DNA of 56,678 bases from a virus. The notes under the pieces were generated by a model that saw nothing but the letters and a program-made list of their open reading frames with translations, had not been told where the DNA came from and made no database searches. Numbering within the stretch: the first letter of the stretch is position 1; every line of letters begins with the position of its first letter. Location of the stretch: positions 1 through 56,678 of the IMG/VR virus record IMGVR_UViG_3300049215_000850. One strand, 5' to 3'. Positions 35,061 through 56,678 of the stretch are shown here, one piece after another. A program made the translations under genes and the position numbers.

Positions 35061-35210
35061 AAGCCTCCTGAGCCTATTCCTGATATTGGAGACGGGGCAG
35101 GCGGTCAGGAAAACCGCTTTTCGAGAGCTACTCTAGCCCCGCTCATAACCACATAGCGGGTGACGCATGTGATGATTATCCGTGTATCACCGTTTAGTTC
35201 TTCGCTCAAT

Positions 35211-48150: not shown

Positions 48151-48261
48151 GTTTGCGCCGATTCGCACCGGGTTTTCAAGAAGATTCTGGGGTCCGTGGG
48201 GGCGGCTCGCTAGATTCCCCCGCCATTCGACTGCCCGGTGATTCTCAGAAAGGATTTCTCA

Positions 48262-49053
48262 ATGGCTCAACTGGCAACGAAGCCTGTGTCGTGGCTCAAG
48301 CCCGACCCGAACCAACCCCGCCGCCATTTCGACGAAGCGGAACTCCGCCTGCTCGGGGAGTCGCTCCGCAAGCGACAACTCCAGCCCGTTCTAGCCCGTC
48401 CTGACGGCACCATCATCGCCGGGGAACGGCGGTTCCGGGCGGCCACGCTTGTCGGCCTGAAGGAGTTGCAGGTCGTCGTGACCGACGAAGCTCTGTCCGA
48501 AGCAGAGGTCAGGGCAATCCAACTCACCGAGAACATCCACCGGGCCGACCTGACCGGGCATGAGAAGTGGCAGGCGTGCCGGGAGCTGCTCGAACTCAAC
48601 CCCGGCTGGATGGCCAAAGACCTGGCCGAGCACCTACACCTCGACCCTTCATCGGTCACGCGGCTGCTCTCTCCGGGCAAGTGCATCCCCGAGGCTCAGG
48701 AAGCCCTCGCCGCCGGGAAACTGGGCATCAGCGACTGTTACGCGATTTCCAAGCTCCCCCCGGAAGACCAACCCGGCCTGCTGGCTCTCAAGCTTGGCGG
48801 CGCGAGCCGCGACGCGCTGGAGCGTCAGGGACGGAAGAAGCGGTCGGCAAGTGCCCCGACGGTGCGCGCCAGCAAAATCAGGTGCCCGCTGGTGGGCGGC
48901 GCGACGGTCACGGTGGCGGGAGATGACATCAGCCTCGACGACGCAATCGAGTCGCTGAAAGACGCGCTCAAGGCCATGCAGAAGGCACGAGATACCGGGC
49001 TGGATGCGAAGACGGCTCAAGCCGTCTGGAAGGACGTTGCGCGGGCCGGTTAG
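48262..49053 (+). CDS. parB: ParB-family DNA-binding protein
   Basis: The 263-residue protein has the ParB N-terminal domain (PDPNQPRRHFDEAELRLLGES, then GERRFRAATLVG and LTENIHRADLTGHEKW) and a helix-turn-helix (WMAKDLAEHLHLDPSSVTRLLS). The domain order is that of partition and Noc/Spo0J-like proteins. No ParA gene is visible in the window. It may partition a circular form or act as a regulator. The ATG at 48262 has AAAGGA upstream, better than the one at 48238. Confidence 0.88.
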   Translation: MAQLATKPVSWLKPDPNQPRRHFDEAELRLLGESLRKRQLQPVLARPDGTIIAGERRFRAATLVGLKELQVVVTDEALSEAEVRAIQLTENIHRADLTGHEKWQACRELLELNPGWMAKDLAEHLHLDPSSVTRLLSPGKCIPEAQEALAAGKLGISDCYAISKLPPEDQPGLLALKLGGASRDALERQGRKKRSASAPTVRASKIRCPLVGGATVTVAGDDISLDDAIESLKDALKAMQKARDTGLDAKTAQAVWKDVARAG

Positions 49054-49556: not shown

Positions 49557-49667
49557 CCCTGCGCCTTGCCAATCACCCAGCGTCTAGAACCGCTGAACGA
49601 CTAACTCAGCCTCTTGCTCTCAGGTTGTGTATGGCACCGACCGTGCCACATCGATAGGAGTCTGTCA

Positions 49668-51407
49668 ATGCGTTTCACCCGCCTCATTCTCATCGCCTCC
49701 ATCCTGCTGGCCGCCTACAGCACCGCGCTGCTCGTCTACCTGTTCCCGTGGGCGTGGCTGGCTCTGGCCATCGGCGTCCTCTACGGGCTGGCCAAGCGCG
49801 GCATCCGCTACACCGCATACGGCACGGCTCGGTGGGCGAATTCCAGCGACCTGCCGCGCAACGATGGCTTCCTGCTCGGCCATCTTGGCGGCTCCCGGCC
49901 TTCCATCCTGTTCGGCATCGTCGTCCTGCTGCATCCCCGCGTTTCGTCTGCCGTGGCCTGCGACACATTCCTCTCGACCATGCGGAAGAAGGCGAAACAG
50001 CTCATCCGCATCCCCGTGGTTCACACCGCCGTTTTCTCTCCGACAGGCGGGGGAAAGGGCGTGTCTTTCGTCATCCCGCACCTGCTCACCTGCCCGGAAT
50101 CGACGGTGGTCGTGGACTTCAAGGGCGAGAACGCCAAGGCCACGATGCGGGCGCGTCGGGCCATGGGTCACAAGGTCGTGCTGCTCGACCCGTTCAAGGT
50201 CGTGACTCAGGAACCCGACACGTTCAACCCGCTGGATTTCATCGACAAGGATTCCTCAGTCGCCATCGATGAGTGCCGCGACCTGGCCGAAGCCCTCGTC
50301 ATCAGGACGGGTCAGGAACGCGAGCCGCATTGGGCGGATTCCGCCGAGGTCTGGATTGCCGCGATGCTCGCCACCGTCGCGAACTACGGGGATGGCTCCG
50401 ACAGGTCACTGCAGGCCGTGCGGATGCTCCTGACCGACACGGAGAAGATGCAGGCCGCCATCAAGCTGATGTGTGAGTCCGACGATTGGGGCGGGATGCT
50501 CTCCCGGCTCGGCCACCAGCTCACGCACTTCAAGGAGAAGGAACTCGGCTCGACGCTCACGACCACCAATCGGTTCATGCGGTTCCTCGATACCTCGGCG
50601 ATTGCGGAAAGCACGAAAGCCAGCAGCTTCGCCCCCGCCGACCTGCTCAAGGGCAAGATGACGGTCTACCTCATCCTTCCCCCGGAACACATGCGGGCTC
50701 AGGCGGCACTTCTCCGGACGTGGATAGGCTCGATGCTCCGGGCGGTGGTGCGCGGCGGACTGTCGGAGCGCAGGGTGCATTTCGTGCTGGACGAGGCCGC
50801 AACCCTCGGTCACATGGACGCGCTCGATGACGCGGTGGACAAGCTCCGGGGCTACGGAGTTCGGCTCCAGTTCTATTACCAGTCGCTCGGGCAGCTCAAG
50901 AAGTGCTGGCCGGAGGGACAGGACCAGACGCTGCTCTCGAACACGACTCAGGTCTTCTTCGGGGTCAACGACCAGCAGACGGCGGAGTACGTCAGCAACC
51001 GCCTCGGCGAAGAAACCATCGTCATCAACAGCGGTGGGTCGAGCTCAGGCAGGAGCAGCCAGAGCAGCCCGCAGAGCAGCAACCAAAGCTACTCGTGGAA
51101 CGAGAGTGGCAACTGGCAGCAGCACGGGCGCAAGCTGCTCAAGCCGGAGGAGGTCGTATCGCTGCCGGAGCGCACGGCCATCACGTTCACGCCCGGAACA
51201 CCGCCAATCTGCACCACGCTGGTGCGGTACTACGAACCCGATTTCGGCAGGAAACCCGGAAGGTTCTGGCCTGCGGTCAGGGCTTTCGGCAACGCGGTGC
51301 TGTTGCTGGCTGCGGTGGGGCTAGCTGCGCTGGCCCTGACGCAGATGGCGGGTGAGGAGAGCGCGCCGGAGCGTCCGGCCGCCTCGGATTTCTGGCTTCT
51401 CAGGTGA
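49668..51407 (+). CDS. TraG/VirD4-type coupling protein, membrane anchored
   Basis: The 579-residue coupling ATPase would feed relaxase-DNA to a secretion channel. Two N-terminal membrane helices (about 5-20 and 22-42) are followed by Walker A SPTGGGKG (124-131) and Walker B VHFVLDEAATLG (about 367-378). A Ser-rich low-complexity stretch (about 455-490) and a final hydrophobic helix (about 540-565) follow. I start at ATG 49668, where TAGGAG lies 7 nt upstream. The gene is followed by an 88-residue gene and tiny membrane proteins. It is a distant paralogue of the soluble ATPase at 1302. No VirB4/TraC or other mating-pair gene is in the window. Confidence 0.9.
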   Translation: MRFTRLILIASILLAAYSTALLVYLFPWAWLALAIGVLYGLAKRGIRYTAYGTARWANSSDLPRNDGFLLGHLGGSRPSILFGIVVLLHPRVSSAVACDTFLSTMRKKAKQLIRIPVVHTAVFSPTGGGKGVSFVIPHLLTCPESTVVVDFKGENAKATMRARRAMGHKVVLLDPFKVVTQEPDTFNPLDFIDKDSSVAIDECRDLAEALVIRTGQEREPHWADSAEVWIAAMLATVANYGDGSDRSLQAVRMLLTDTEKMQAAIKLMCESDDWGGMLSRLGHQLTHFKEKELGSTLTTTNRFMRFLDTSAIAESTKASSFAPADLLKGKMTVYLILPPEHMRAQAALLRTWIGSMLRAVVRGGLSERRVHFVLDEAATLGHMDALDDAVDKLRGYGVRLQFYYQSLGQLKKCWPEGQDQTLLSNTTQVFFGVNDQQTAEYVSNRLGEETIVINSGGSSSGRSSQSSPQSSNQSYSWNESGNWQQHGRKLLKPEEVVSLPERTAITFTPGTPPICTTLVRYYEPDFGRKPGRFWPAVRAFGNAVLLLAAVGLAALALTQMAGEESAPERPAASDFWLLR

Positions 51408-51693: not shown

Positions 51694-51777
51694 TGGAGCG
51701 GGGCGGGAGAGTCGAACTCCGCGCCGCAAGGCTCCAGTTTGGAAGACTGGTGGACGCCCCTTGTCCTCTCACCCCGC
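51694..51777 (-). tRNA. Divergent tRNA-Gly(TCC)
   Basis: An 84-nt cloverleaf can be drawn on the minus strand. Acceptor GCGGGGT pairs with GCCCCGC (one G-U), then T73 and an encoded CCA. The anticodon arm is CCAGT-CTTCCAA-ACTGG with anticodon TCC (Gly GGA codons). The T-loop is TTCGACT with four of five stem pairs, and the D-stem is GGAC/GTCC. Two features are odd: four bases instead of two between acceptor and D-stem, and a 12-nt variable region that can form a GCC-ttgc-GGC hairpin, unusual for tRNA-Gly. It may be a functional phage tRNA or a decaying one. It lies antisense in a short gap within a rightward operon. Confidence 0.7.
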
Positions 51778-55247: not shown

Positions 55248-56678
55248 GTGCCGTCGATTTACAAGAGACCCGCCGACAAGGGCAAGAAGAATAAGCCGTG
55301 GCTGATCGAGTACCGGGACGCCGACGGCAACCGGGCCTACGCCAAGGGCTTCACCGATAAGGGGCTGACCGAGCAGCTCGCGGCCAAGCTCGAAAACGAA
55401 GTCCTCCTCCGCAAGCGGGGGATGATTGACCCGGCTCAGGAACGGCTTCTGGCCATCAAGCAGTCGCCCATTGCCGACGCGCTTGCCGCGTTCGAGCGTT
55501 CGCTTGACAACACGACTCCGAAGCACCGCAAGCTCACCATGACCCGCGTCCGGCGGCTGGTCGAGGCTTCCGGCGTCAAGGCGTTGTCCGATTTGGAGGC
55601 GGAGAAGATCGAGGAAGCATTGAAGGAACTCCGTCGGGCAGAGGATTTGGGCAATCGGACTTACAACCACTACCTGCAGGCCATCGACGAGTTCGGGAAA
55701 TGGCTGGTGTCGTCGAAGCGGCTCCCCACGAACCCGGTCGCTGGTATCGGCCGTCTGAACGCCGAAACGGATGTCCGGCACAAGCGGCGGGCACTCACGC
55801 CGGAAGAAGTCTCCAAGCTCGTCCGTGCCGCTCGGGAATCCGGCTGCGAGGTGCAGGGGTATCCCGGGGAACTGCGGGCGCGGGTTTACCTGATGTCGTT
55901 CTTCACCGGGTTGCGGCGGCTGGAGCTGGGCAGCATCACGCCCAGGTCATTCAAGCTGGACGACGAACAGCCGACGCTGGTGGTCGAGGCCGCGTGCTCA
56001 AAGCACCGCCGGAAGGACACGCTGCCGATGCACCCGGAACTGGTCGCATTGGTGCGTGCGTGGACGGAAGGGATGGAACCCGACGCGCCGCTGTTCCCAC
56101 GGCTCGCCCGGAAAAAGACGTACACGATGGTTCAGAAGGATTTGGAACGGGCTGGCATCCCTTACGAGACGCATGAGGGGCTGGCCGATTTCCACGCGGC
56201 TGGGCGGCACAGCCACATCACCGGGCTGATTGCCTCCGGTGCATCCATCATGGAGGCCAAAGAACTGGCGCGCCATGCCGACATCCGGCAGACGGCGAAA
56301 TACACCCACATCGGGATGCGGGCGAGGGCCGACGCTCTTGCCGGGCTGGTCGCTCCTAACACATGCGAATCCGCCGAATTGTCGGAAATACGTCGGGTTT
56401 CGGGCGGCGTCCAGCGTCAGGAGGTTTCAGCGGATGACAGGGCGGCGGTTGGTTCACCCGCGTCCAGAAACGAAAAAACCCCTTCCGGGGAAGGGGTTTC
56501 GTCGTGTTGTGTCACTGACTTTCAGGAGGAGTCAGTTGACGTAAGTAGTGGAGGCGGCGGGAATTGCACCCGCGTCCCGAGATCCGTCCGTGCCGGCATC
56601 TACGTGTGTAGCCAATCATTTGATTGTCGGCCTCGGAGCCCCGATCGGCAGGGTCTCCTGCGGCTTATCCCATCATGA
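55248..56678 (+). CDS. Tyrosine integrase whose frame runs antisense through the tmRNA end
   Basis: The 476-residue recombinase would join the element to ssrA. It has an N-terminal arm-binding/SAM-like region (1-170) and a catalytic domain (about 180-370) with Arg223, the Lys region near 252-256, H316-x3-R320, His343 and the nucleophile Tyr352 (AKYTHIG). The start is GTG with GGAGG 7 nt upstream. The catalytic domain ends near 370. The frame then passes through a terminator (about residues 409-418), and residues 434-476 are the antisense of the tmRNA 3' part, so this tail depends on integration. The stop is the last codon of the window. Confidence 0.9.
   Translation: MPSIYKRPADKGKKNKPWLIEYRDADGNRAYAKGFTDKGLTEQLAAKLENEVLLRKRGMIDPAQERLLAIKQSPIADALAAFERSLDNTTPKHRKLTMTRVRRLVEASGVKALSDLEAEKIEEALKELRRAEDLGNRTYNHYLQAIDEFGKWLVSSKRLPTNPVAGIGRLNAETDVRHKRRALTPEEVSKLVRAARESGCEVQGYPGELRARVYLMSFFTGLRRLELGSITPRSFKLDDEQPTLVVEAACSKHRRKDTLPMHPELVALVRAWTEGMEPDAPLFPRLARKKTYTMVQKDLERAGIPYETHEGLADFHAAGRHSHITGLIASGASIMEAKELARHADIRQTAKYTHIGMRARADALAGLVAPNTCESAELSEIRRVSGGVQRQEVSADDRAAVGSPASRNEKTPSGEGVSSCCVTDFQEESVDVSSGGGGNCTRVPRSVRAGIYVCSQSFDCRPRSPDRQGLLRLIPS
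56473..56499 (-). terminator. tmRNA terminator inside the integrase gene
   Basis: On the minus strand the stem AAACCCCTTC / GAAGGGGTTT (arms 56490-56499 and 56476-56485) with a four-base loop is followed by six T. It lies 50 nt beyond the tmRNA 3' end, a normal distance. It lies on the element side of the probable crossover, so the element itself supplies the tmRNA terminator. Confidence 0.75.
56549..56585. other. Probable attachment site (attR side) in the tmRNA 3' end
   Basis: The T-arm and acceptor strand of the tmRNA, the usual identity segment for ssrA-integrating elements, directly abut the integrase side of the element. The exact core cannot be fixed because the other junction is not in the window. 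Confidence 0.5.
56549..56678 (-). ncRNA. ssrA: tmRNA (ssrA), 3' part, cut by the window edge
   Basis: The minus strand ends as a typical tmRNA: a final pseudoknot region with GGCTACACACGTAGATGCC, then the T-arm GCGGG-TGCAATT-CCCGC and the acceptor strand CGCCTCC followed by A73. The next bases are CTA, so CCA is not encoded. The T-loop reads TGCAATT where many tmRNAs have TTCGAAT-like loops. tmRNA rescues stalled ribosomes and tags the unfinished protein. The 5' part, including the tag reading frame, lies right of the window. Confidence 0.88.

Follow-up and report, generated by a model that had tools for sequence, protein, structure and literature searches.

At the right end of a provirus record, an integrase gene (int) runs past its catalytic domain into the antisense strand of the tmRNA gene (ssrA), which raises the question of what the C-terminus of this integrase is before and after integration. 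The DNA analysed here (56,678 bp, hereafter the window) is a complete IMG/VR provirus record (IMGVR_UViG_3300049215_000850). An initial annotation of the locus had proposed that integration swaps the integrase tail between the integrated and circular states, and had described a C-terminus encoded by the ssrA antisense strand; it also suggested that integrase stability or activity might change, and that int would be transcribed against ssrA.

From its GTG start, int is read over 476 codons without interruption to its TGA stop (table 1). The Pfam family Phage_integrase (PF00589) matches residues 182–355 (E-value 2.6e-13) and the invariant residues R223, K252, H316, R320, H343, and Y352 are present (A3), which makes the product a tyrosine recombinase; about 105 residues therefore lie beyond the catalytic domain. 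The HxxR motif (56193–56207) reads HAAGR in the ssrA clade, one residue being inserted between H316 and R320, and HALR in relatives integrated at tRNA genes. As the initial annotation had stated, the frame continues past the catalytic domain, crosses the ssrA terminator and proceeds through 43 sense codons and a stop in the ssrA antisense strand. Host DNA begins beyond the att core (56574–56678). In hosts devoid of the element, whose ssrA terminators differ from the one carried by the phage, this antisense frame likewise reaches the TGA without interruption: the stop is conserved because ssrA is, and the openness of this stretch, which reflects ssrA conservation, does not, taken alone, speak for int. 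Past the ssrA terminator, and before reaching the ssrA 3' end, the int frame crosses an inverted repeat, ACTGACT-TTCAGGAGG-AGTCAGT (56514–56536), replaced at the same place in several relatives (e.g., L019, L023, L025, and L032) by a different inverted repeat with both arms changed, and absent from others; it may serve a recombinase or an excisionase as a core-flanking site, or form a hairpin for RNA processing.

Table 1. Features of the integrase end of the window
Feature	Positions	Strand	Basis
int, tyrosine integrase ORF, integrated (attR-type) form, 476 aa	55248..56678	+	ORF, Pfam, relatives
Conserved integrase body, residues 1–371: N-terminal arm-binding-like, core-binding, and catalytic domains, Tyr352	55248..56360	+	
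int linker, equal to the attP P arm; free of stops although pN/pS among relatives is about 1.1	56361..56546	+	
Arm-type direct repeat TGTCGGAA-ATA-CGTCGGGT, 11-bp period	56380..56398	+	sequence; arm comparison
ssrA intrinsic terminator, phage-carried, overlapping the int frame	56475..56500	-	
ssrA (tmRNA) 3' part, RF00023, 55 bits, 5' side cut by the window end	56546..56678	-	
att core AGTGGAGGCGGCGGGAATTGCACCCGC	56547..56573	.	comparison with attL/attR pairs of relatives
TGA stop of int, within the ssrA antisense strand	56676..56678	+	

The composition of int changes along its length. GC3 drops from 0.81 in the body to 0.57 past the catalytic domain, so that the extension, taken alone, is unlike ordinary coding sequence. 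This low GC3, together with a linker pN/pS of about 1.1 in comparisons among relatives, suggests that the linker appears to be a frame held open rather than one preserved as protein, which fits the DNA roles of the region, as it contains the arm repeats, the ssrA terminator, and the core. Noncoding-like values of this kind would also be found if the int stop had been lost and the ssrA antisense strand happened to be open, the readthrough being meaningless for the phage. Such a fortuitous origin is compatible with the open ssrA antisense frame of element-free hosts, and an open stretch of 106 codons in one gene is only modestly improbable. The decision between these possibilities comes from related elements.

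The ends of the record have to be considered first. Its first base belongs to the stop codon of a methyltransferase gene on the - strand and its last base to the int stop. Because provirus records of this kind are trimmed at gene ends, int stops at the last codon of the window; the initial annotation was right about this position, and the coincidence with the window end is an artefact of the trimming. Any feature ending exactly at a record end is to be read with gene-end trimming in mind. Since both record ends are gene stop codons, trimming removed attL: the window carries only the ssrA end of the element, the other end lying outside the record. In agreement, we found no repeat longer than 13 bp within the window that could include attL, and no match to the tail profile described below. 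The start of a sister record, G002, lies 209 bp inside the attL core of that element. The methyltransferase gene at the left end of the window gave only a weak local match with the left ends of relatives, and the left junction of the window can therefore not be transferred from them.

By using an ssrA 33-mer, we obtained matches in eight genome contigs, including Singulisphaera, Tautonia, and one Isosphaeraceae MAG. A search of 45 Isosphaeraceae genomes, some of which are fragmented, identified twelve integrases of 71–85% identity, most of them adjoining ssrA; relatives of 70–85% identity retain the int extension. Most of the twelve continue into the ssrA antisense strand, using either the GGGGNCTR or the EAAGIAPA frame; L016 and L018 are the two that stop before it. 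Where the two align, the integrase L014 has 78% identity to that of the window, and neither the core entered nor the frame used differs between them. According to ARAGORN, targets of the integrase family include ssrA and the genes for tRNA-Ser, Met, Cys, Glu, Lys, Phe, His, Leu, and Arg. In relatives, the RNA gene is intact at one end of the element, the opposite end carrying a 3' fragment. No close integrase relative was found by protein search of viral_contigs, and tblastn searches of phages and plasmids with the window integrase gave only distant matches (<30% identity).

A search for the ssrA 3' end in the genomes of relatives revealed paired sites 39–115 kb apart (across the contig start in G030). 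The attL/attR core measures 22–63 bp in relatives, and the ssrA core, located at the ssrA 3' end, about 27 bp. We reconstructed attP in silico by fusing the two arms of an element at the core, with the right arm first, which yields the circular form. The joined arms form one open frame comprising the catalytic domain, the P arm, the core, the P' arm, and a conserved tail, DLAEVVDAWPELPEAIRAGILAMVR. In ssrA elements, the int frame runs via the core into a tail such as KDAALSEVAARWHLLTPEVRLSILALVRAG, and each frame class has its own arrangement, the tail being in the GGGG frame in elements entering ssrA in that frame, and in the EAAG frame in the others. Three relatives integrated at tRNA genes have the same architecture and a similar tail, PDLAEVVDAWPELPEAIRAGILAMVRTS. 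Altogether, the tail was in the int frame after joining in 34 of 34 elements, inserted at ssrA and at many tRNA genes; these are the elements with a clear direct repeat and, being related to each other, they do not represent 34 independent events. Between the catalytic end and the tail (123 codons on average), the int frame of these 34 elements contains no stop in 4,193 codons, and the two other frames contain 117 (+1) and 130 (+2) in 4,159 codons each; the interval is fully open in 34 elements in the int frame versus 0 and 2 in the other frames. For G017_C555, the top repeat was misleading (an arm repeat), and the tail is in frame with the second-best one. The same holds for G014b, whose repeat is interrupted by an indel next to a second tail and which was excluded from the 34, and the tails of G042_C7b and G030_6.15M, for which there was no matching repeat, were not counted.

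Both arms also share short direct repeats with an 11-bp period (TGTCGGAA, GTCTGCA, GGTTGC, and TTGCCCAC), which covary between elements: the longest word common to both arms averages 13.5 bp within an element versus 8.5 bp between elements. Such repeats, of the same kind in the two arms of relatives, also include the one present in the window.

The tail itself was examined with a 31-position profile (A1), which gave 97 matches in the 45 genomes. These matches lie in open frames with a median length of 121 aa, and only 6 of the 97 in frames of at least 300 aa. Thirty-three tails precede a same-strand integrase by 4–115 kb; the order was wrong in one case, and the strand opposite in another. In a thinner sample of Planctomycetota, the tail was detected in 20 of 199 genomes (E-value 1e-6), again mostly in short frames. 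Read in the int frame, the tail motif has a pN/pS of 0.58; the two other frames give 1.03 and 1.29, and the stretch that follows the stop gives 0.97. On this sequence comparison, the tail is under protein-level constraint. No model of Pfam or NCBIfam covers it. An AlphaFold2 model of the L016 integrase, in which the tail is contiguous, is confident for the body and of low confidence for the tail, which is predicted to be helical with pLDDT values mostly of 40–60. Foldseek found a match to full-length lambda Int including its N-terminal domain, which fits binding to arm sites. The family thus combines an N-terminal arm-binding-like fold with arm repeats shared in relatives, as expected of lambda-type heterobivalent integrases, DNA binding being predicted.

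These data make a fortuitous readthrough very improbable: frames opened by chance would not be expected to reach, without a stop, a tail constrained at the protein level in 34 elements of 34, nor would the two ssrA frames in use each be paired with its own tail. In prophages, the tail is orphaned at attL, alone in a short frame and in some cases with an upstream ATG, so that it might be seen as a small gene of its own, located at the left end and unrelated to int, the fusion being a by-product. We rejected this explanation, to which we give hardly any weight, because the tail matches the int frame in all 34 joined elements; furthermore, its start codon is inconsistent (by inspection), and it is joined immediately to the catalytic domain in L016 and L018, whose frame stops before attP. 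In G042, where the tail already sits behind the catalytic domain in this arrangement, the left arm is tail-less. L016 and L018 also provide a natural comparison for the effect of a tail swap. Given the 34 in-frame tails, the absence of stops, the constraint on the tail, and the orphan tails at attL, we conclude from sequence that attP is inside int in the relatives and that integration exchanges the C-terminal tail. As a whole, an integrase spanning attP, whose conserved tail is swapped on integration for a host-determined extension, is with high probability the best explanation, and the arrangement looks like the common state of one integrase family in Isosphaeraceae.

The proposal of the initial annotation that circular and integrated forms differ in their tails is thus borne out in every relative that could be reconstructed, with the addition of a conserved tail. 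Its emphasis on the antisense strand is another matter: the intragenic attP and the loss of the tail stand, and antisense coding appears incidental, because the int frame of several elements reads the target tRNA in sense.

Two loci, L222 (G033:C115) and L223 (G014:C1), show an integrase-like linker, an RNA-gene core, and a tail contiguous in natural frames; they are probably remnants or tandem junctions rather than intact genes. At L052 and L075, upstream of the attL core, the sequence to the left of attL in G032 resembles the right end of a second ssrA element, one belonging to the opposite frame class; it looks like a tandem or relic element. No free circular phage with a contiguous tail could be confirmed in IMG/VR.

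Because the window agrees with the G032 type in frame, core, and arm repeat, we place it with these relatives, and infer that its attP is likewise inside int, with a tail of its own beyond the missing attL. Its circular form is predicted to run through the GGGGNCTR frame into a tail like AARWHLLTPEVRLSILALVR. The tail swap is therefore a sequence-level observation in relatives and, as regards the circular tail of the window, an extrapolation from them.

The window is probably a temperate phage integrated at ssrA of an Isosphaeraceae host. It contains terminase, portal, capsid, and tail genes and, unusually for a tailed phage, two genes for T4SS coupling proteins (VirD4/TraG-like; 1302–2555 and 49614–51407) and a ParB-like gene (48238–49053). 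A match to the int-alpA RNA family (35078–35143) is located far from the integrase, and a phage-borne tRNA-Gly lies at 51694–51777.

In the circular form, int would encode in order the catalytic domain, a P arm with Int arm sites, the ssrA terminator, the core, a P' arm in which these sites recur, and a helical, conserved C-terminal tail. Recombination at the core would transfer the tail-coding segment to attL, leaving it stranded there, and would fuse int to the host ssrA antisense strand, the prophage product being a tail-less integrase with a host-determined extension. Whether the two proteins differ in activity divides the possible interpretations. The combination of int, attP, and arm sites might be a cassette that switches elements and targets, both protein forms being equally active; a single integrase family indeed serves ssrA and many tRNA targets, and archaeal suicidal integrases have been discussed along similar lines (PMC8371274). 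We consider this rather unlikely, since it leaves unexplained the retention beyond attP of a constrained tail that can be moved, as L016 and L018 show, and since Mx8 offers a precedent for an activity difference (PMC4701971). That the full-length form is integration-competent and the prophage form weaker or differently regulated has, in our judgment, about an even chance of being correct; such a prophage integrase would stabilise lysogeny, as has been reported for Mx8, and it is by analogy with this phage that we favour a restrained prophage form. A stronger version, which we put forward tentatively and hold to be possible at somewhat below even chance, is that the attP-spanning integrase of Planctomycetota mobile elements acts as a built-in directionality switch, the circular, tail-bearing form integrating and the tail-less form being restrained or specialised for excision. 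If so, the act of integration itself would reset the enzyme. The family offers many natural pairs for testing whether loss of the integrase tail sets the direction of recombination. The arrangement also explains the short orphan ORFs found by the dozen at the ends of islands, and it carries a warning: when an integrase is annotated from an integrated element, part of its C-terminus is host RNA-gene sequence.

An intragenic attP is considered rare in bacteria, the example usually given being the Myxococcus phage Mx8. As described in reviews, attP is inside the Mx8 int gene, integration replaces 112 residues by 13 and makes the enzyme less active, and the prophage integrase shows an altered choice of sites (PMC4701971, PMC6070905). 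Mx8 and Mx9 resemble the present elements in having attP within a tyrosine integrase gene whose C-terminus is replaced on integration, an arrangement that we found in 34 relatives and extend by inference to the window. Mx8 Int also contains, by eye, a stretch resembling translated antisense tRNA. Homology of the tails was rejected, because the tail profile finds nothing in the Mx8 C-terminus. With the window integrase, tblastn gave no match to Mx8 at an E-value of 1e-5. The present elements differ from Mx8 in that their arrangement is found repeatedly, at ssrA and at many tRNA genes, and comes with a conserved tail and with repeats in both arms.

In phage lambda, attP is outside int. Lambda Int shares the full-length fold, including the N-terminal arm-binding domain, and arm-type sites flanking the core; it differs by lacking an extra tail domain beyond attP. 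In systems of the BPs type, attP is in the repressor gene rather than in int. The integration-dependent immunity of mycobacteriophage BPs is otherwise similar, as an intragenic attP alters the C-terminus of a regulator on integration (PMC4557955). Streptococcal ICEs inserted in rumA have attR inside the integrase gene and different C-termini in the excised and integrated states (PMC4701971), but encode a serine integrase and use a protein-coding target. In archaeal SSV-type ("suicidal") integrases, att is also within the gene and integration separates its parts (PMC8371274); there, however, two pieces result, IntN and a catalytic IntC, which are both inactive on their own. We rejected assignment to this type because the catalytic domain is intact on one side of the core in all elements, only the tail being exchanged. 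Integrases extending across attP were noted as exceptions by Islander (PMC4383910), and a recent review states that integrases disrupting their own gene occur only in archaea (PMC8371274). We found no report of an attP-spanning integrase of Planctomycetota in the literature searched, which was largely open-access and does not prove absence. Intragenic attP sites are known from Mx8/Mx9 and, in a more extreme version, from archaeal integrases; the conserved tail of this Planctomycetota family is unrelated to that of Mx8.
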